Of a stretch of DNA of 27,219 nt, positions 10,879-27,219 are shown piece after piece. The stretch covers positions 1-27,219 of the IMG/VR virus record IMGVR_UViG_3300006119_000051; one strand, given 5' to 3'. This DNA comes from a virus. Under the pieces are notes generated by a model, which was not told the DNA's origin, did no database searches, and saw only the letters and a list, made by a program, of their open reading frames with translations. Every line of letters starts with the position of its first letter. The first letter of the stretch is position 1. A program made the position numbers and the translations under genes.

Positions 10879-11373
10879 ATGGATTGGTTAGCACAAATAG
10901 CACCAAGTATAGCTACGGCATTAGGTGGACCACTAGCGGGGCTGGCGGTTACTGCAGTATCTAAAGCGCTTGGTATTGATGAAAAAGATGTTCAATCAAC
11001 GATTGAATCTGGTAAATTAACAGCAGAACAATTAGCGAACCTTAAACAAGCCGAAGTTCAATTGCAAGCAAGGGCTCAAGAATTAGGTTTAGATTTTGAA
11101 AAACTTGCGGTAGATGACCGTAAATCCGCAAGGGATATGCAAACAGCAACGCATTCATGGATTCCACCATTACTTTCCATTTTAATTACAGCTGGATTTT
11201 TTGGAATTTTATTTGCTTTGATGATGGGCTATGCAACAAAGTCTGATGAATTAATGATTATGCTTGGTTCATTATCTACGGCGTGGGTTGGTATTATTTC
11301 TTTTTACTTTGGTTCATCGGCGGGTAGTCAAAAGAAAGATGAACTATTACATCAAAGTACACCTACAACATGA
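10879..11373 (+). CDS. Holin-like protein (3TM type)
   Basis: 164 residues. The N-terminus has a Gly/Ala-rich hydrophobic segment (about 7-31), then a charged helical middle (AEVQLQARAQELGLDFEKLAVDDRKSAR). Two clear membrane spans follow, at about 94-117 (SWIPPLLSILITAGFFGILFA) and 124-146 (a segment ending in SFYFGSSAGS). The DRKSARDMQ...SWIPPLL...SAWVGIISFYFGSSAGS signature is common in phage proteins encoded just before the endolysin and resembles 3TM holins of the gene-transfer-agent type. It overlaps the endolysin start by ATGA. This is the best holin candidate of the cassette, though the neighbouring membrane proteins leave the assignment open. Confidence 0.75.
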   Translation: MDWLAQIAPSIATALGGPLAGLAVTAVSKALGIDEKDVQSTIESGKLTAEQLANLKQAEVQLQARAQELGLDFEKLAVDDRKSARDMQTATHSWIPPLLSILITAGFFGILFALMMGYATKSDELMIMLGSLSTAWVGIISFYFGSSAGSQKKDELLHQSTPTT

Positions 11374-11885
11374 AAGATAATTATTTTACATCATTGCAAA
11401 ATGTATTAAAAAGCGAAGGCGGGTGGTCGGATAATCCAAGCGACCCAGGTGGTGCTACGATGAAAGGTATTACCCTAGAAGTATATCGTGCGTGGAAACG
11501 TAATCCGCATATTACAAAAGATGAATTAAAGGCTATTCCAGATGTTGATGTGTACAATCTTTATAAACAAAACTATTGGGATAAGTGCCGTTGTGATGAT
11601 TTACCAGCTGGTATTGATTATGCAGTTTTTGATGCTTCAGTTAATATGGGTGTTGGTCGAGCTGCTAAGTTAATTCAAGAAGCTGTTGGCGTGGTTGCCG
11701 ATGGGATTATTGGAAACGGAACAATAGAAGCCATTAATAAAACAAATCCACGTTCTATATTGGAAAACTTTAGTGTAGAAAAACAAAACTTTTATAAATC
11801 ATTTCCTACGTTTGAAACTTTTGGCAAAGGTTGGTTAAATCGTGTAGCAGAAGTAAAAACAAGTGCAGAAAGTATGCTTGCATAA
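11370..11885 (+). CDS. Endolysin, GH108 muramidase
   Basis: 171 residues. The N-terminal domain carries the hallmark of glycoside hydrolase family 108, SEGGWSDNPSDPGGATMKGI at residues 15-34, in which E16 is the expected catalytic acid. An NYWDKCRCDDLPAGIDYAVFD segment (68-88) and the C-terminal half (VNMGVGRAAKLIQEAVG...DGIIGNGTIEAIN) match the PG_binding_3 region that follows in this family. It cleaves the glycan backbone of peptidoglycan at the end of infection. No signal peptide or signal-anchor is seen, so it should need the holin to reach the wall. It is coupled to the holin-like gene by ATGA. Confidence 0.93.
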   Translation: MKDNYFTSLQNVLKSEGGWSDNPSDPGGATMKGITLEVYRAWKRNPHITKDELKAIPDVDVYNLYKQNYWDKCRCDDLPAGIDYAVFDASVNMGVGRAAKLIQEAVGVVADGIIGNGTIEAINKTNPRSILENFSVEKQNFYKSFPTFETFGKGWLNRVAEVKTSAESMLA

Positions 11886-22342: not shown

Positions 22343-23184
22343 TGGCTGAAGAATCACAAGAAGATTACGATAAAAAGTTTAAAGAATTATTTCCTGAAAG
22401 TCATTTTCAGCCTGAGTTTTATCAGAAAGAGGGTAACGCACCTATAGCTGGGGCGAAACCGCAGCCCAGCCCTTTAATTAGAGGGGCTGAAGCAGGTGTA
22501 GGAACTATGCTTTTAAACAGATTAAATGCTGGATTTCCGAATGCTCAAACGGTTTCCCCTACAATAGCACCTGCGCAACCTTCTATTATCACTAACCCTG
22601 CTGATATTTCTCGTGCATCAGGCGCAAAACTTCCTGGTGAATCAGCAAATTTAAATTATATAAGAGCTGAAGCAGGTCAGAATCAAAGAGTTCCTTTCGC
22701 TGTTCAATCTGCAGCAACAAATTATAGGAAAGACAACCCAACTGGCGCTCATTTTTTGATAGCCCAAGATCTCGAAAATGCTCAGAAACAAAAAGACATT
22801 GGTGAAGGTTCAATGAAATTTTCTGGAGAAGGCAAAGAAGAGCTTTTGCTACCGCCAGAAGTTGCCGAAGAACGAAATAAAAAACTCTCCAGACTCACAC
22901 CTTTACAAAGAATGCAAATTTTGAAAGAGCGTCTGATTAATAAACTTCCTGATAGGTTATCACCTACAGCAAATGCTTTTGGCGTTGCAAATTTTCAAGA
23001 CATGGCTAATAGGTTAGAACAAACCCCGCCCGATATTACTGGGGCAGCTATTTCTGGTTTAGGAGGGGTTGGTTCTTTAGCGACATACGTTCCTTATAAG
23101 CCTGTATCTGTCGCAGGTAGGGTGGTTAGTCTTGGTGCGCCTGCTTTGAATGCTTACAGGGACGAAGAGAAAAAGAAAAAGTAA
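22342..23184 (+). CDS. Last late gene, unknown virion-associated protein
   Basis: 280 residues, with AGGAG before the ATG. The N-terminus is charged (MAEESQEDYDKKFKELFPES); a Pro/Ala-rich middle contains GAEAGVGTMLLNRL and NYIRAEAGQNQRVPFA; the C-terminal third has LTPLQRMQILKERLINKLPD, then a Gly/Ala-rich, mildly hydrophobic stretch (ITGAAISGLGGVGSLATY) and a KKKK end. It carries no enzyme motif. By position it is likely to be the last of the internal or ejection protein set. Its stop codon is immediately adjacent to the stop codon of the convergent minus-strand operon. Confidence 0.72.
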   Translation: MAEESQEDYDKKFKELFPESHFQPEFYQKEGNAPIAGAKPQPSPLIRGAEAGVGTMLLNRLNAGFPNAQTVSPTIAPAQPSIITNPADISRASGAKLPGESANLNYIRAEAGQNQRVPFAVQSAATNYRKDNPTGAHFLIAQDLENAQKQKDIGEGSMKFSGEGKEELLLPPEVAEERNKKLSRLTPLQRMQILKERLINKLPDRLSPTANAFGVANFQDMANRLEQTPPDITGAAISGLGGVGSLATYVPYKPVSVAGRVVSLGAPALNAYRDEEKKKK

Positions 23185-23436
23185 TCATTGACGTTGACTA
23201 GGTATGCGGTTGCGAATTACTTCGGGCAGCTTTTCAATATCAACACATTCTTCAGCAAGTACAGCACAGGCTTCACGTTCCATCATCACCGCCGTTCTTG
23301 ATGCTTCAATCGCCATTGCCATGATTTCTGCTTTCGCTATTGCAAGGGCATCATCAAATTCTTGTTGGGTAAAAAGGGTTACACCCCCACCGCCACCTAG
23401 TAATTGGCGTTGTAATTGGCTCATTTCAGTAGTCAT
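23185..23436 (-). CDS. Small protein, unknown, last gene of minus operon
   Basis: 83 residues; ATG at 23436 with AAGGA six bases upstream. A glycine run (LLGGGGGV) is followed by a helix (QQEFDDALAIAKAEIMAMAIEA) and MEREACAVLAEECVDIEKLPEVIRNRI. The REACA...E...IRNRI ending is a pattern common in small early phage proteins of unknown function. It overlaps the upstream gene by 11 bases and ends exactly where the plus-strand operon ends. Confidence 0.72.
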   Translation of the reverse strand: MTTEMSQLQRQLLGGGGGVTLFTQQEFDDALAIAKAEIMAMAIEASRTAVMMEREACAVLAEECVDIEKLPEVIRNRIPSQRQ

Positions 23437-23710
23437 AAAAAATCCTTATTTGTGTAATTTTCTCACCATCAGGGTTAATTGGGGCAGCAGCACCGCCATC
23501 ATTAAAAGTTGAATAAGTATGTGCTTTCAATTGCTGTATCAAACCTGCACATACGTTATACGATGCTGGCGATATAACTTTGTCTTGATGATTTTCAAAT
23601 ATCTTTTCAACCGTTTCAATTTGTTGAATTAACATATTTAAAATTGCATGATGCGTATCACGTTTTCGTTGTTGTTCATCCCATGCTTGAATTAAATTTA
23701 ATGGTTTCAT
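23426..23710 (-). CDS. Small protein, unknown
   Basis: 94 residues from the ATG at 23710, which gives an ATGA overlap with the upstream gene and lies 7 bases after GGAGG; the in-frame TTG at 23716 is too close to that site. The sequence (MKPLNLIQAWDEQQRKRDTH followed by a helix with IQQIETVEKIFENHQD) is predicted mainly helical, with a flexible GGAAAPINPDG stretch near the C-terminus. It has no recognised family, membrane segment or metal motif. Confidence 0.75.
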   Translation of the reverse strand: MKPLNLIQAWDEQQRKRDTHHAILNMLIQQIETVEKIFENHQDKVISPASYNVCAGLIQQLKAHTYSTFNDGGAAAPINPDGEKITQIRIFYDY

Positions 23711-24015
23711 TTCCAACCCTCCAATATTTCAAGTAACCTGCGGTAAAACTTTTGCCTATCAACCATCACGGCGGGTTGATAAAGTTCAATAAATTCCATT
23801 AGTGGGTCATCATCCGTGCGGATATCACCATCCTTAATAAACAATGCTTGTTTTGCATCGCCCATATAGGCTTTTGTTTCACCAAAAATTTGTTCCGTAA
23901 GGGGCGCATCCCTACCCTCACGAATCTTTGCGATTTCCGCATCGATGCGTTCGGGTTCAATTTCTTGATTACCTAAATACAAATCTTTTTCTTCTTTCGT
24001 TGCTTTTCTTTTCAT
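23707..24015 (-). CDS. Small acidic/helical protein, unknown
   Basis: 102 residues from the ATG at 24015, chosen because it gives an ATGA overlap with the 52-aa gene upstream and has AAGGTGG at good spacing; an in-frame GTG at 24027 lies against that site. It begins MKRKATKEEKDLYLGNQEIE and contains DAPLTEQIFGETKAYMGDAKQ, DPLMEFIELYQPAVMVDRQ and a terminal RRLLEILEGWK. No domain recognised. It belongs to the chained early operon. Confidence 0.75.
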   Translation of the reverse strand: MKRKATKEEKDLYLGNQEIEPERIDAEIAKIREGRDAPLTEQIFGETKAYMGDAKQALFIKDGDIRTDDDPLMEFIELYQPAVMVDRQKFYRRLLEILEGWK

Positions 24016-24170
24016 TTGTTCCACCACCTTATCGGTTTTTTGCGCCCATACTTCAGCGTTGCTTTATAAAAATGATATCTGTCAAAGATACCTCTCATGA
24101 ACCTTGCCCCTCGACGTTTAGAAGACATCTTAGTTCTAGAGCGACGAGGTTTAAGATCGTTAAATCTCAT
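24012..24170 (-). CDS. 52-aa strongly basic protein, unknown
   Basis: The frame fits exactly between its neighbours: it starts one base after the upstream stop (TAA-T-ATG) and ends in ATGA overlap downstream. It is very rich in Arg and Lys (LKPRRSRTKMSSKRRGARFM, then FYKATLKYGRKKPIRWWNK), with aromatic residues clustered at the C-terminus. Such composition suggests nucleic-acid or membrane-surface contact, but no family is recognised. Without this gene the chain would have a 300-base hole. Confidence 0.65.
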   Translation of the reverse strand: MRFNDLKPRRSRTKMSSKRRGARFMRGIFDRYHFYKATLKYGRKKPIRWWNK

Positions 24171-24171
24171 A

Positions 24172-24333
24172 TTATTTGCTCATAGGTTTACTTGCGATTG
24201 CTATGCTATCTCGAATTGATTTTAATGCGCTTATAATCCTATCAAGCTCGTCAACCGTATTAAATAAAGGTAATTGTGTATTTTCAGGATTACCTTCAGC
24301 CATTACTTCCGCCATCGTTTTAAAATCTTTCAT
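24172..24333 (-). CDS. 53-aa small protein, unknown
   Basis: ATG at 24333 with AGGA seven bases upstream and ATGA overlap with the preceding gene. The sequence MKDFKTMAEVMAEGNPENTQ, followed by LPLFNTVDELDRIISALKSI, is mostly helical with a TVDELDRII segment. Both flanks are chained genes, which argues it is translated. No function recognised. Confidence 0.65.
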   Translation of the reverse strand: MKDFKTMAEVMAEGNPENTQLPLFNTVDELDRIISALKSIRDSIAIASKPMSK

Positions 24334-24557
24334 TTTAACATCCTATTCTTAATAGTTTCGTGAATTGCTGCCCTATATTTAGGCGGTATATTATCATCAA
24401 CAATACTCCATGCGACCATCGTAGCTTGTGTCCAAGCCTCTAACCATACAGCCTTTGGGTCAGTTAAAAACTCTTCTTCCGCCTTTGCAGCTTTTAATAG
24501 TTTAACCCAATCGTCAAATGCTTCTTCTTGTTTTTCCTTTACGAACCCGATTAACAT
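24330..24557 (-). CDS. Small helical acidic protein, unknown
   Basis: 75 residues with the strongest ribosome-binding site on this strand, AGGAGG seven bases before the ATG at 24557. The upstream gene's stop overlaps the start (TAATG). Sequence: MLIGFVKEKQEEAFDDWVKL, then AEEEFLTDPKAVWLEAWTQATMV-type helices and YRAAIHETIKNRMLK. Aromatic and acidic residues suggest a compact helical protein. No family recognised. Confidence 0.75.
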   Translation of the reverse strand: MLIGFVKEKQEEAFDDWVKLLKAAKAEEEFLTDPKAVWLEAWTQATMVAWSIVDDNIPPKYRAAIHETIKNRMLK

Positions 24558-24808
24558 TATTTTCCTCCTAACCTAAAAGGAAAAGTTTTGTTTAACAAAG
24601 CTACTTCTTTCCACCATTCATCACTGTATTTTTCTTTTTTAAACTGTCCAATATCTGACTGTAAATTGTTTGCATCAATAATTTGTTTTAGCATTGCTAT
24701 TTCTTTTGCTTGTTGGCGAAGCAAATCAGGTATTTCATGTACAAGCCTATCGTATTCTTCGCCCCTAAACATTTTTGTTAATTCGTCTGCCAATTCATTT
24801 GCTGTCAT
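24557..24808 (-). CDS. MTANELAD-family small protein, copy 1
   Basis: 83 residues. The start MTANELADELTKMF is shared with the gene at 25721-26020 (MTANELADKLKLFW), and both continue with [LM]LRQQ...EI..LK, so they are paralogues. The rest is a helical, coiled-coil-like region followed by a divergent tail (EKYSDEWWKEVALLNKTF). The pattern is familiar from small early phage proteins with no known role. Its start overlaps the preceding PVAW-family gene by ATGA at a repeated linker. Confidence 0.78.
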   Translation of the reverse strand: MTANELADELTKMFRGEEYDRLVHEIPDLLRQQAKEIAMLKQIIDANNLQSDIGQFKKEKYSDEWWKEVALLNKTFPFRLGGK

Positions 24809-24827
24809 TTGTCACTCGCTTTCTTTA
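24805..24827 (-). repeat. Gene-junction linker A, copy 1
   Basis: 23 bases identical to 25721-25743. Read on the minus strand it encodes the final residues of the upstream gene, including KASDK, contains AAGAAAG, and ends in the ATGA start/stop overlap. Confidence 0.85.
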
Positions 24828-25059
24828 GTATTGCTTTAGCAAAAGCATATAAAAAACAAATTTCATAGCCATTGAATTTATGTCCAAACTCATTATTGAT
24901 AACATCTGATATTTCCTCATCTGTTAGTGTCTTTGCTGGATGGGTGTAGAGTGGCTTTTCAACTGCCACAAAATTTTTATCATGTTTCTCTCGTGTTCCG
25001 CTAACCCAACTAACCCCATTTTTATTTTCGTAATACCACGCTACTGGTTCATTGTTCAT
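24805..25059 (-). CDS. PVAW/YTHPAK-family small protein, copy 1
   Basis: 84 residues. The N-terminal EPVAWYY and the central PLYTHPAKTLTDEEISDVI match a very common small phage protein type in which [EK]PVAW and LYTHP flank a variable strand. Function is unknown. The paralogue at 26017-26298 shares a 32-base identical stretch covering YTHPAKTLTD. The C-terminus KKASDK is encoded by a linker repeat (24805-24827) also found at the end of 25721-26020. Confidence 0.8.
   Translation of the reverse strand: MNNEPVAWYYENKNGVSWVSGTREKHDKNFVAVEKPLYTHPAKTLTDEEISDVINNEFGHKFNGYEICFLYAFAKAILKKASDK
24917..24948 (-). repeat. 32-bp exact repeat within PVAW genes, copy 1
   Basis: Identical by eye to 26159-26190; encodes the YTHPAKTLTD core of the two paralogues. 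Flanking DNA is diverged, so the identity reflects strong conservation or recent recombination. Confidence 0.85.
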
Positions 25060-25226
25060 TTTTCTTGTGCCTTTCTTATTTCAAATTCTTTATTCCATAC
25101 TGTTGTTTTGCCATCTGACCAGCCATATTGAGTAAATAAAACAGGCATAAAGTAATCAGGATGGTTTACCCATTGGCTTTTACTAACAAGATGGGGCTTT
25201 TCAAGTTCTAATATTTCTAATCTCAT
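25056..25226 (-). CDS. 56-aa small protein, unknown
   Basis: Start placed at the ATG at 25226 because it makes an ATGA overlap with the 30-aa membrane peptide upstream; a GTG at 25259 in frame lacks a ribosome-binding site. Sequence: MRLEILELEKPHLVSKSQWV, then NHPDYFMPVLFTQYGWSDGK and KAQEK at the end. The aromatic, beta-like pattern suggests a small folded domain, unrecognised. Its last residues RKAQEK come from the linker repeat at 25063-25078, as in the gene at 26017-26298. Confidence 0.65.
   Translation of the reverse strand: MRLEILELEKPHLVSKSQWVNHPDYFMPVLFTQYGWSDGKTTVWNKEFEIRKAQEK
25063..25078 (-). repeat. Gene-junction linker B, copy 1
   Basis: 16 bases shared with 25318-25333 and 26024-26039. 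On the minus strand it reads TAAGAAAGGCACAAGA and lies three bases before a start codon, supplying the ribosome-binding site; here it also encodes KAQEK. Confidence 0.85.
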
Positions 25227-25315
25227 ATATCTTTGCACTCTATTATCAAAGCTATACACATCACAGCAATTATCAAAGCCAAAAAACGAATTGCGATAAT
25301 TAAATAATCAGCCAT
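25223..25315 (-). CDS. 30-aa single-span membrane micropeptide
   Basis: The ATG at 25315 follows linker repeat B (AAGAAAGG, nine bases upstream). The peptide is MADYLIIAIRFLALIIAVMC followed by IALIIECKDI: a four-residue polar start, one Arg, and an almost uninterrupted hydrophobic span (about 4-25). It ends in ATGA overlap with the 56-aa gene. Chain position, ribosome-binding site and overlap support translation. No family is recognised. Confidence 0.6.
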   Translation of the reverse strand: MADYLIIAIRFLALIIAVMCIALIIECKDI

Positions 25316-25317
25316 TC

Positions 25318-25333
25318 TCTTGTGCCTTTCTTA
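25318..25333 (-). repeat. Gene-junction linker B, copy 2
   Basis: Same 16 bases as at 25063. Here the initial TAA is the stop of the 58-aa gene, and the rest is the 15-base spacer carrying the ribosome-binding site of the 30-aa peptide. Confidence 0.85.
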
Positions 25334-25507
25334 GTTTTCGCCAGACAATTCAAGTTGTAAGTTGCCTACCAAACCTTCCCCATCAACTATGTTATGGGTG
25401 CAGTTTTCAAAGGCTTCATACAACTTATCACGCAACTTCAGTATTTCTTGTTGGTTATAAGTGGCTATTTGGCAAGTAAATTTCAATTCAATTTCTTTAA
25501 CCTTCAT
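25331..25507 (-). CDS. 58-aa small protein, unknown
   Basis: ATG at 25507 overlaps the upstream stop by ATGA; the TAA at 25331-25333 is followed by linker B and the 30-aa peptide. Sequence MKVKEIELKFTCQIATYNQQ, EILKLRDKLYEAFENCTHNI, then VDGEGLVGNLQLELSGEN: a strand, a long helix and two short strands. No family is recognised. Confidence 0.65.
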   Translation of the reverse strand: MKVKEIELKFTCQIATYNQQEILKLRDKLYEAFENCTHNIVDGEGLVGNLQLELSGEN

Positions 25508-25644
25508 TTCTCACTCGCTATATAAAATTTAATAATTGCTTCGGCAAACATAACAGGAAAATCTGCTTCAGCACCTGCTTCAAGTAAACCTTCTGCTTTA
25601 CCTGTCATATGTAAATAAATATTATGTATTTGTTCTTTGGTCAT
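25504..25644 (-). CDS. 46-aa small protein, unknown
   Basis: Start at the ATG at 25644, with AAGGA seven bases upstream and an ATGA overlap with the 27-aa membrane peptide. A longer reading from a GTG at 25731 (75 aa) is possible, but it ignores this ribosome-binding site and would put 29 extra residues over the membrane peptide. Sequence MTKEQIHNIYLHMTGKAEGL followed by AGAEADFPVMFAEAIIKFY: helical. Function unknown. It ends IASEK at a degenerate copy of linker A. Confidence 0.6.
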   Translation of the reverse strand: MTKEQIHNIYLHMTGKAEGLLEAGAEADFPVMFAEAIIKFYIASEK

Positions 25645-25724
25645 TTTATATTCCTTATGATTTCCGTCATTAAAATTACAATCCCACATAAAAAAATTGC
25701 TATCATCATACAAAATCGTATCAT
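25641..25724 (-). CDS. 27-aa single-span membrane micropeptide
   Basis: ATG at 25724 overlaps the upstream stop by ATGA immediately after linker A (AAGAAAG upstream). The peptide is MIRFCMMIAIFLCGIVILMT followed by EIIRNIK: basic start, hydrophobic span at about 3-19 and a polar tail. It ends in ATGA overlap with the 46-aa gene. The arrangement mirrors that of the 30-aa peptide at 25223-25315. The competing 75-aa frame shares this DNA, so this call rests on overlaps and ribosome-binding sites. Confidence 0.55.
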   Translation of the reverse strand: MIRFCMMIAIFLCGIVILMTEIIRNIK

Positions 25725-25743
25725 TTGTCACTCGCTTTCTTTA
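25721..25743 (-). repeat. Gene-junction linker A, copy 2
   Basis: Identical to 24805-24827 and again located at a stop/start overlap. A degenerate third copy (TCATTTCTCACTCGCTATA) begins at 25504. Confidence 0.85.
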
Positions 25744-26020
25744 ATGATTCAACTTCTTGTGTAAAGTCAGATAATCTTTGTAGTGCAGCTTCTTTTTTCA
25801 ACGCTTCTATTTCAGCTTGATGTAGTTTTATTACTTCTTTAGCAAAAAGACATTCTTCATCCAAAAGAATATAACTTTCTTCTTCCATTATTAATTTTTC
25901 TTTTAACGCTTCTATTTCAGCTTGTTGCTGACGTAGCATGGTGGATGCTTGTTCAAATAAATTATCATTTTCTGTATGCCAAAACAATTTCAACTTATCT
26001 GCTAGTTCATTTGCAGTCAT
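25721..26020 (-). CDS. MTANELAD-family small protein, copy 2
   Basis: 99 residues, paralogue of 24557-24808 (shared MTANELAD start and LRQQ..EI segment). A long coiled-coil-like region follows (QAEIEALKEKLIMEEESYIL, later AEIEALKKEAALQRL), so it probably oligomerises. It ends KKASDK through linker repeat A, like the gene at 24805. It starts in ATGA overlap with the second PVAW-family gene, so the same two-gene order appears twice. Confidence 0.78.
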   Translation of the reverse strand: MTANELADKLKLFWHTENDNLFEQASTMLRQQQAEIEALKEKLIMEEESYILLDEECLFAKEVIKLHQAEIEALKKEAALQRLSDFTQEVESLKKASDK

Positions 26021-26298
26021 TTCTCTTGTGCCTTTCTTAGTATTGTTAACTCATCCCTTAATTGAATAATTGTTTCAGCACCTATTTCCATAGCAGTTAC
26101 CCAGCGTTCAGGAGTTCTAGCTTTTTGATTTAACCCATGCACAACTTTGGCAATATCGTCATCTGTTAGTGTCTTTGCTGGATGGGTGTAAATTGGAATG
26201 TCAGTATTATTTGTTTTTTGCGGAAAAACAGCACCCCCATAACCTTGTTTTAAATATTCCAAATCAAGGTTTCGAATCCACGCTACTGGTTTACTCAT
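26017..26298 (-). CDS. PVAW/YTHPAK-family small protein, copy 2
   Basis: 93 residues, MSKPVAWIRNL at the start and PIYTHPAKTLTDDDIAKVV in the middle; paralogue of 24805-25059. The C-terminal half (MEIGAETIIQLRDELTILRKAQEK) is helical. The last residues RKAQEK are supplied by linker repeat B (26024-26039). ATGA overlap with the upstream 51-aa gene. The function of this common phage type is unknown. Confidence 0.8.
   Translation of the reverse strand: MSKPVAWIRNLDLEYLKQGYGGAVFPQKTNNTDIPIYTHPAKTLTDDDIAKVVHGLNQKARTPERWVTAMEIGAETIIQLRDELTILRKAQEK
26024..26039 (-). repeat. Gene-junction linker B, copy 3
   Basis: Same 16 bases, encoding the KAQEK end of the PVAW copy-2 gene and preceding the start of MTANELAD copy 2. 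Confidence 0.85.
26159..26190 (-). repeat. 32-bp exact repeat within PVAW genes, copy 2
   Basis: Partner of 24917-24948, 1242 bases away in the same orientation. Confidence 0.85.
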
Positions 26299-26450
26299 TT
26301 AAAAGATTCCTTTATTAATTCATCAGTTAATTGATCTAAAAGTCTTCTTGCTTCGGCAACATCTTGTAAGTTTGGTTTTTTATCGAAACAAACCCAAACA
26401 TTATTAGCCATTATAGCGATTGCCGCACCTTTTAACAACTGCTCAATCAT
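26295..26450 (-). CDS. 51-aa small protein, unknown
   Basis: ATGA overlaps on both sides, with the resolvase upstream and the PVAW-family gene downstream, fix both ends. Sequence MIEQLLKGAAIAIMANNVWV followed by CFDKKPNLQDVAEARRLLDQ and LTDELIKESFK: two helices with a slightly hydrophobic first one. No family recognised. Confidence 0.68.
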   Translation of the reverse strand: MIEQLLKGAAIAIMANNVWVCFDKKPNLQDVAEARRLLDQLTDELIKESFK

Positions 26451-26923
26451 TTCCGCACCTGATATAAATACAACGCTAGCAATGCAGCTTCAGCCCTTCC
26501 ATCATCTTTTTTACGTTTGAATAGTTCTGTTTTTGTTGGCCAAATGCGCATTGCCATCTCACGTGCTCCGTCTTTGCTGGAATTAACCCCTATCGCCTTT
26601 TTCCAAACCGCTGGGGTAACATGTGTGTACGGTATCATGCAACCTGCGAGAACCCCTTCTATCACTCCGAGAGAACGTCCGAAAGAAAACATAGAAGTAA
26701 CCCCTTGATTAGGCATCGCATTAACTTGCTCTATTATTCCCTTAATATGTTGGTTTTTAAATAAGGCTAACTCTAAAACTAGCTCTTGCGGATTAACTCT
26801 TTTCTTTGTGCTCTTTCCGACTTTTACTTCTGTTGTGGGCATGTCAAATATTTGAACAATATCTTCATCTTCAAGAATTGCAATCGCACCATTCATTCCT
26901 GGATCAACTCCTAAATAATACAT
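26447..26923 (-). CDS. RuvC-like Holliday junction resolvase
   Basis: 158 residues, close to the usual length of RuvC-type proteins. MYYLGVDPGMNGAIAIL carries the first acidic residue D7 in the GVDPG motif; IIEQV gives E65; KKDDGRAEAALLALY gives D140/D141 with E145, the expected C-terminal acidic cluster. RuvC folds use these residues with two Mg2+ to cut four-way DNA junctions symmetrically; in phages they resolve recombination intermediates or branched DNA before packaging. AAAGG precedes the start and it is coupled to the upstream nuclease gene (TAATG), which fits a recombination module. Confidence 0.88.
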   Translation of the reverse strand: MYYLGVDPGMNGAIAILEDEDIVQIFDMPTTEVKVGKSTKKRVNPQELVLELALFKNQHIKGIIEQVNAMPNQGVTSMFSFGRSLGVIEGVLAGCMIPYTHVTPAVWKKAIGVNSSKDGAREMAMRIWPTKTELFKRKKDDGRAEAALLALYLYQVRK

Positions 26924-27219
26924 TATTTACCTTTCTGCGAATAACTTTCGCACGCTTCTATCTGATGTTTTAATGTTAAAGTTGCGCTCTTCAAAGCGCA
27001 TAGCCACGCCCCATTTTCAAATGGTTTAGAATGTTCACACGTTCTGCAATTAACAATAGGTGGTTTCTTTTTATAACACACATCCCTGTAATCACACCAA
27101 GCACAAGGATACTTTTCATAATCCTCACCAGCTCCAGCAGGGGCTAAGTCAGCATTAATTAGCGTATTAATTCTTTCTAATATATCCGCTTGAACCTCTA
27201 AATCAGGTTTAACACGTCT
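26923..27219 (-). CDS. C-terminus of PD-(D/E)XK-type phage nuclease, 5' end cut by window
   Basis: Only the last 98 residues are in the window; the frame is open to base 27219. The visible part has a helix (DLEVQADILERINTLINADL), then a cysteine cluster: C39, C42 and C48 in YPCAWCDYRDVC, C58 and C61 in NCRTC, then C74 and C90. CxxC-x5-C followed by NCRTCxHSKP is a tail I know from phage exonuclease-like proteins of the Cas4/RecB (PD-(D/E)XK) type, but the catalytic part lies outside the window. The cysteines may bind zinc or an iron-sulfur cluster. It is probably the recombination exonuclease; the stop overlaps the resolvase start. Confidence 0.65.
   Translation of the reverse strand, partial: RRVKPDLEVQADILERINTLINADLAPAGAGEDYEKYPCAWCDYRDVCYKKKPPIVNCRTCEHSKPFENGAWLCALKSATLTLKHQIEACESYSQKGK

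Follow-up and report, generated by a model that had tools for sequence, protein, structure and literature searches.

Two genes for hydrophobic micropeptides of 27 and 30 amino acids (aa), here called TM27 and TM30, lie in an operon of small genes on the minus strand of a 27,219-nucleotide (nt) stretch of viral DNA (IMG/VR record IMGVR_UViG_3300006119_000051, positions 1 to 27,219; this whole stretch is hereafter the window). Our analyses point to both as members of an array of swappable accessory genes, in which a portable sequence of about 23 nt, the junction (TAAGAAAGGCACAAGAGAAATGA and variants, with AAAGCGAGTGACAAATGA as a second form in this phage), would act as a coupling and recombination adaptor; we give this reading a probability of about 0.65. 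The junction provides the upstream gene's last codons, or its stop, together with the start of the next gene. It has long been asked how phages exchange single small genes at their edges while keeping expression intact, a question on which such an element would bear.

An original prediction, made from the sequence alone, had described each micropeptide as following a linker and as ATGA-coupled to a small gene, an arrangement borne out here: the ATGA at the end of TM27 is also the start of a 46-aa gene (25644-25504, minus strand), and that at the end of TM30 the start of a 56-aa gene (25226-25056, minus strand), with AAAGAAAGCGAGTGACAA and AAGAAAGGCACAAGAGA as the respective upstream linkers. 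The linkers are non-random as well: with up to three mismatches allowed, AAGAAAGGCACAAGAGAAATGA (type A) was matched three times and AAGAAAGCGAGTGACAAATGA (type B) twice in the window, where 100 shuffles for each gave an expectation of 0.00, the copy before TM30 carrying three mismatches to the type A 22-mer. Coupling itself is widespread in the operon, the overlap being found in 10 of the 16 pairs of neighbouring genes between ruvC and 23185 (counted from coordinates), so it alone does not mark out TM27 or TM30. The micropeptides and the junction copies lie as follows:

25641..25724, minus strand: TM27, 27-aa hydrophobic micropeptide MIRFCMMIAIFLCGIVILMTEIIRNIK (open reading frame (ORF); relatives in 11 loci)
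25223..25315, minus strand: TM30, 30-aa hydrophobic micropeptide MADYLIIAIRFLALIIAVMCIALIIECKDI (ORF; relatives in 7 loci)
26017..26038, minus strand: junction type A (AAGAAAGGCACAAGAGAAATGA) before a 99-aa gene (exact)
25721..25741, minus strand: junction type B (AAGAAAGCGAGTGACAAATGA) before TM27 (exact)
25504..25524, minus strand: junction type B variant (TATATAGCGAGTGAGAAATGA) before a 58-aa gene (read from the sequence; part of repeat D1)
25312..25332, minus strand: junction type A minus one A (AAGAAAGGCACAAGAGAATGG) before TM30, preceded by the upstream gene's TAA
25056..25077, minus strand: junction type A with one change before an 84-aa gene (mismatch search)
24805..24825, minus strand: junction type B before an 83-aa gene (exact)

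The junction recurs far beyond the window, its type A 19-mer in at least 120 viral stretches and its type B 18-mer in 24. Conservation ends sharply at the start codon: across 198 unique type A contexts it amounts to 1.28-1.52 bits over the four bases before the 19-mer and 0.24 bit at the base after ATGA, fading upstream of the 19-mer over about 20-25 nt and lying near background past the ATGA. In 27 sources retrieved by means other than the junction (the window included), 35 of 52 junction-type sites are identical; here, and in the counts of cores, closed frames, ORF enrichment and 16S pairing below, one source that is a piece of the window (L001) and the contig repeats L136, L021, L052 and L086 are omitted. 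Downstream of every one of 217 15-mer cores is an ORF that either reaches 20 aa or extends past the edge of its source. With closed ORFs alone counted, one follows 254 of 254 junctions, compared with 67% of the other ATGA sites whose upstream frame is open.

What lies upstream of the junction differs in kind. Genes of a type that we call PVAW (78 of 217) carry a tail of about 39 nt, FARAILRKAQEK, whereas behind other genes, and at the 12 of 217 sites where the frame leading into the overlapping TGA is closed, the shared stretch spans about 19-23 nt. The TAAG outside the search key is kept at 78-85% at the 120 sites behind other gene types, a class that still includes some PVAW-like tails, and at 75-92% at the 12 closed-frame sites. 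In nine of these 12, a stop (eight TAA, one TGA) occupies the junction's first three letters and closes a frame that has run open for 20 codons or more, 16 nt from the ATG; in two of the three frames, the junction can terminate the gene upstream, and it offers the next start. Five loci (L002, L024, L042, L083 and L146) lack one A, which shifts the frame, and do not enter the strict closed-frame count of 12/217 (looser count, 18/228).

Neighbours change across the junction. At least two upstream clusters were found for 15 of 25 recurrent downstream clusters, and at least two downstream clusters for 13 of 15 recurrent upstream ones, both counts being coarse, as 223 nodes fall into one cluster through chimeric genes. 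Breaks in homology gather at the same place: in 117 regions, near-identical contigs included and 18 repeat loci, terminase stretches and sources with fewer than two junctions left out, 259 of 627 5′ ends and 300 of 642 3′ ends fell at junctions, with null means of 67.9 and 39.9 and maxima of 88 and 57 in 500 draws. Within the same arrays, a break was present at 225 of 278 covered junction boundaries versus 50 of 99 other ATGA boundaries. A short shared sequence is thus present at the mosaic breakpoints. Chimeric genes in L172, L173 and L110:1538-1846 (minus strand) join the N-terminus of one small family to an LTDEE...FARAIL-like PVAW-type tail, which suggests shuffling inside genes also.

The phages carrying the junction are diverse. 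A terminase match was obtained in 20 of 40 junction-bearing records, forming nine groups at 35% identity and 11 at 50%, and seven of the nine include a record with at least two junction matches. In all of 21 records the matches lie on one strand per record, and a reversed-pattern control gave none in any of the 21. From an annotated phage collection of 50,697 records the 39-nt junction is nearly absent, with one significant match, MW202753.1 from a spring sample (E 2e-7; next, E 0.6); it lies at 31883-31921, and about 1.4 kb further downstream there is an exonuclease gene. For a tail protein, the match is 61.2% to a spring metagenome phage and 44.5% to four Caulobacter phages, and no tRNA was found in the window. 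The 22-mer junction also occurs in four contigs of a genome collection, all from metagenome-assembled genomes of mixed label (L149-L152: Bacteroidetes, cyanobacterium, beta proteobacterium and Nitrosotalea), which are perhaps misbinned phage contigs; the L150 contig also has a junction-flanked membrane peptide.

The genes behind the junction are varied and rich in membrane micropeptides. A membrane-level hydrophobic stretch is present in 35 of 60 junction-coupled ORFs of 20-50 aa, compared with fractions of 0.209 (of 354) and 0.145 (402/2776) in other ATGA ORFs, and most of the 32 junction-coupled membrane peptides listed differ from one another. Some arrays hold several, with three each in L110 and L012; across L110, L012 and L126 there are two or three different ones per array, two of them back to back in L110. 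Among 97 representatives of at least 40 aa, Pfam recognized 16 families, mostly with single members and including YqaJ, family A DNA polymerase, Toprim and radical SAM, and nucleotide kinases and others figure among the 25 of 60 families listed in a PHROGs scan of array members. With such core families behind it, the same junction can be followed by replication genes.

TM27 and TM30 look like real, conserved genes. The frame of TM27 is full length in 11 of 11 relative loci (five DNA haplotypes) and that of TM30 in 7 of 7 (six haplotypes), so the loss of the peptide frames in relatives, named in the prediction as grounds for abandoning it, was not seen. The other such ground, translation of a 75-aa frame from the GTG at 25731 in place of TM27, was rejected, with an in-frame stop in the other four of five TM27 haplotypes (10 of 11 loci); close relatives of the 46-aa gene in L172 and L173, which start at the same Met directly after a type-B-like junction, count against that frame too. 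Part of a 54-kb contig matches 23185-27219 of the window without a difference over 4,035 bases, so the TM27 and TM30 frames do not depend on any single assembly. Pooled pN/pS is 0.35 for TM27 and 0.26 for TM30, from few sites and related, non-independent pairs. Given these values and the membrane enrichment, both are most likely expressed membrane accessory peptides retained for a function of their own, their single membrane span being predicted from hydrophobicity. Matches to PADLOC defence families were absent for TM27, TM30 and their partners, as were matches of the two peptides to a described superinfection-exclusion family in PHROGs and PADLOC; the Pfam search covered their partners and neighbours. 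A holin role is unlikely, because the endolysin-family gene (phrog_315, E 9.2e-48) sits elsewhere, on the plus strand at 11370-11885, preceded by a 164-aa gene (phrog_1544, unknown function) with long hydrophobic stretches by eye.

The two peptides differ in how firmly they keep their partners. TM27 is ATGA-coupled to a different gene, of 64 aa, in 10 of 11 loci (phrog_4973, E 7e-7; a winged-helix HTH_39 match lies below the Pfam cut-off), the 46-aa gene being its partner solely in the contig that matches the window exactly; upstream, TM27 has a type B junction in two of 11 loci and a type-A-like one in nine (AAAGGCACAAAAA in eight, AAAGGTAAAAAAA in one). Contig 3300013094_001838 carries TM27 (L155) and a gene of the 46-aa family (L172) apart from each other. 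In its 30 loci, counted by hand, the 46-aa family follows TM27 once, a 24-aa membrane peptide eight times, a 29-aa one twice and a non-membrane gene 15 times, with four unassigned. TM30, by comparison, precedes a 56-aa-family gene in 7 of 7 loci: the 56-aa gene itself in four and, in three, diverged genes that appear, by our own reading of a shared HPxxxYPxxxTQxGW pattern, to be its relatives. Among its 14 loci, the 56-aa gene follows TM30 in four and other sequence in nine, and is cut off in one. Between L002 and L010, agreement is 180 of 184 aligned columns in the upstream cysteine-rich gene and 132 of 140 in the body of the 56-aa gene, TM30 is present in one only, and the divergence over TM30 begins inside the junction. 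In L002:2420-2752, where the junction is shortened, it joins the 56-aa gene and the next MTTFTTEDR gene in one frame of 110 aa.

These counts bear directly on the function that the original prediction had speculatively proposed, in which each micropeptide and its ATGA-coupled partner form a toxin/antitoxin or superinfection-exclusion pair. The repeated arrangement stands, and the constancy of TM30 with a partner also found without it is as expected of a toxin and its antitoxin. However, TM27 has two unrelated partners, the 46-aa family is mostly without TM27, PADLOC gave no match, and no junction separates TM30 from its partner, so that their joint inheritance requires no functional tie. From the partner counts, such a pair is unlikely for TM27 and the 46-aa gene and only possible for TM30 and the 56-aa gene, and as a general account of both units it is the least probable of the alternatives that we weighed. 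It is also improbable, though a little less so, that the micropeptide ORFs are translational leaders that pass ribosomes to the next start while the peptide itself is inert: the ORFs are very short and ATGA-coupled, and the partner of TM27 varies, but both the pN/pS values and the enrichment of membrane-like products point to selection on the peptides.

Turning to the junction itself, folds at five window junctions were unremarkable against shuffles in four cases, the one before TM27 being somewhat stable (z -1.97), and a structured RNA was rejected as its basis. Nor was a strong Shine-Dalgarno sequence seen: the median pairing with the 16S tail was -3.3 kcal/mol at 254 junctions versus -4.4 at 949 other ATGA couplings. 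A 75-aa gene after the junction-linked run (24557-24330), unlike the junctions, has a strong Shine-Dalgarno (-10.2 kcal/mol). That the junction serves solely in translation initiation or regulation, being kept alike by selection on expression and coinciding with breaks merely as any gene edge would, strikes us as unlikely, although this account carries more weight than those concerning the micropeptides. It fits the position at the start codon, also where the upstream frame is closed, the range of genes that follow (family A DNA polymerase, YqaJ recombinase and Toprim as well as ORFans) and the folding results; it does not fit pairing weaker than at other couplings, near-identity over about 20 nt, which exceeds what a Shine-Dalgarno requires, or the excess of breaks over other ATGA edges. 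Quite improbable, in turn, is the proposal that the junction is the hitch-hiking 3′ end of a duplicated PVAW-type gene, of which other genes hold remnants. The 39-nt tail behind PVAW-type genes, set beside the shorter form elsewhere, speaks for it, while the short form is kept behind the 120 other genes and at the 12 closed-frame sites, and its presence in records of 9-11 terminase groups fits function better than a remnant.

Several observations also weigh against the adaptor reading. Most loci were retrieved with the exact 19-mer as the search key, and its invariance is, for that reason, largely selected. As phage mosaicism favours gene edges anyway, the fairer control for the breaks is 81% versus 51%, and the regions compared are not independent. 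Seven of the 21 records have a single junction match, three of the 12 closed-frame sites lack an upstream gene end that fits the two-frame model, and the weak 16S pairing leaves no strong ribosome site evident. The long form of 39 nt may simply be what the genes of one heavily duplicated family have at their 3′ end. For the micropeptides, the pN/pS values come from few sites and related pairs, and PHROGs offered no usable family for either (best E 0.5 for TM27 and 0.32 for TM30, both function-unknown). The recombination and expression roles of the junction are, moreover, deduced from sequence.

With these points counted, we still favour the adaptor reading, which would work as follows. In one frame, the upstream gene would receive the tail ...KAQEK and a TGA overlapping the next ATG; in another, the leading TAA would end it 16 nt ahead of the ATG, so that genes joined in either frame would be terminated and placed close to the next start. 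Being alike between unrelated genes, the junction would offer short homology for exchange between phages without loss of expression, presumably by homologous recombination or annealing, and would support translation by coupling. The phages' own RuvC or YqaJ-type enzymes might assist, to judge by the gene neighbourhood. TM30 and its 56-aa partner would move as one unit, while TM27 would have switched partner. A broader formulation, which we put forward tentatively and with the odds somewhat against it, is that a stop-start adaptor of about 23 nt serves unrelated freshwater phages as a universal translational coupler and recombination site, building integron-like arrays of exchangeable single-gene cassettes, rich in membrane micropeptides, with no dedicated integrase.

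The operon around the micropeptides runs, on the minus strand, from ruvC through the 51-, 93- and 99-aa genes, TM27, the 46- and 58-aa genes, TM30 and the 56-, 84- and 83-aa genes to more small genes:

26447..26923, minus strand: RuvC-like Holliday junction resolvase ahead of the run (phrog_1770, E 1.3e-39)
26295..26450, minus strand: 51-aa gene, ATGA-coupled on both sides, no junction (ORF)
26017..26298, minus strand: 93-aa PVAW...YTHPAKTLTDDD gene, tail RKAQEK (ORF)
25721..26020, minus strand: 99-aa MTANELAD...RQQQAEIE gene, tail KKASDK (ORF)
25504..25644, minus strand: 46-aa soluble gene, ATGA-coupled to TM27 (ORF; family in 30 loci, many different upstream genes)
25331..25507, minus strand: 58-aa soluble gene between the micropeptide units, its TAA end just ahead of a junction (ORF; has relatives)
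25056..25226, minus strand: 56-aa soluble gene, ATGA-coupled to TM30 (ORF; 14 loci)
24805..25059, minus strand: 84-aa PVAW...YTHPAKTLTDEE gene, tail KKASDK (ORF)
24557..24808, minus strand: 83-aa MTANELAD gene, final member of the junction-linked run (ORF)

A two-gene block, PVAW-type then MTANELAD-type, is present twice in the same order (26298-25721 and 25059-24557), its PVAW pair being 86% identical over a 51-nt stretch.

Our phrase searches of the literature found no description of the junction, which is weak evidence of absence, and three known systems invite comparison. The start-associated sequences (SAS) of cluster K mycobacteriophages are, according to the available sections of PMC3203893, short repeats in nearly always one orientation, located a few bases ahead of start codons in the genome's non-structural half, where the genes concerned belong to different families, with a suggested role in translation initiation; the sequence given there is 13 bp, GGGATAGGAGCCC, with an AGGAG core. 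The junction is similar in lying directly before the starts of genes of different families in one orientation. In contrast to what those sections describe, it extends into the upstream coding end, contains an overlapping stop and start, pairs weakly with 16S rRNA and spans diverged phages; the SAS 13-mer has no match in the window with up to two mismatches. Promoter early stem-loops (PeSL) of T4-like phages, described in the accessible portion of PMC4503421 as mobile regulatory cassettes with an early promoter and a stem-loop between genes, likewise represent a repeated expression element between shuffled small genes. Unlike PeSL so described, the region 23100-27219 contains no terminator-like hairpin in a simple consensus scan, and promoter-like sites there are at chance in a consensus scan (16 vs 14.6, sd 4.3). 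The junction looks like a translational rather than a transcriptional joint and would, on sequence grounds, resemble a start-associated boundary sequence that departs from SAS in its sequence and from PeSL in promoter and hairpin.

The third comparison is with the short conserved boundary sequences that, in the available text of PMC3029335, are proposed as mediators of phage mosaicism and are reportedly missing at most mosaic edges. Like them, the junction is a short stretch of common DNA where modules meet and could guide exchange by homology; unlike the sequences described in that text, it occurs at over 250 distinct gene joints (258) and doubles as a start region. Because one near-exact sequence marks such edges in diverged phages, the boundary-sequence idea becomes directly testable, and the junction can be used to collect small accessory genes by the hundred, with many membrane micropeptides among them.
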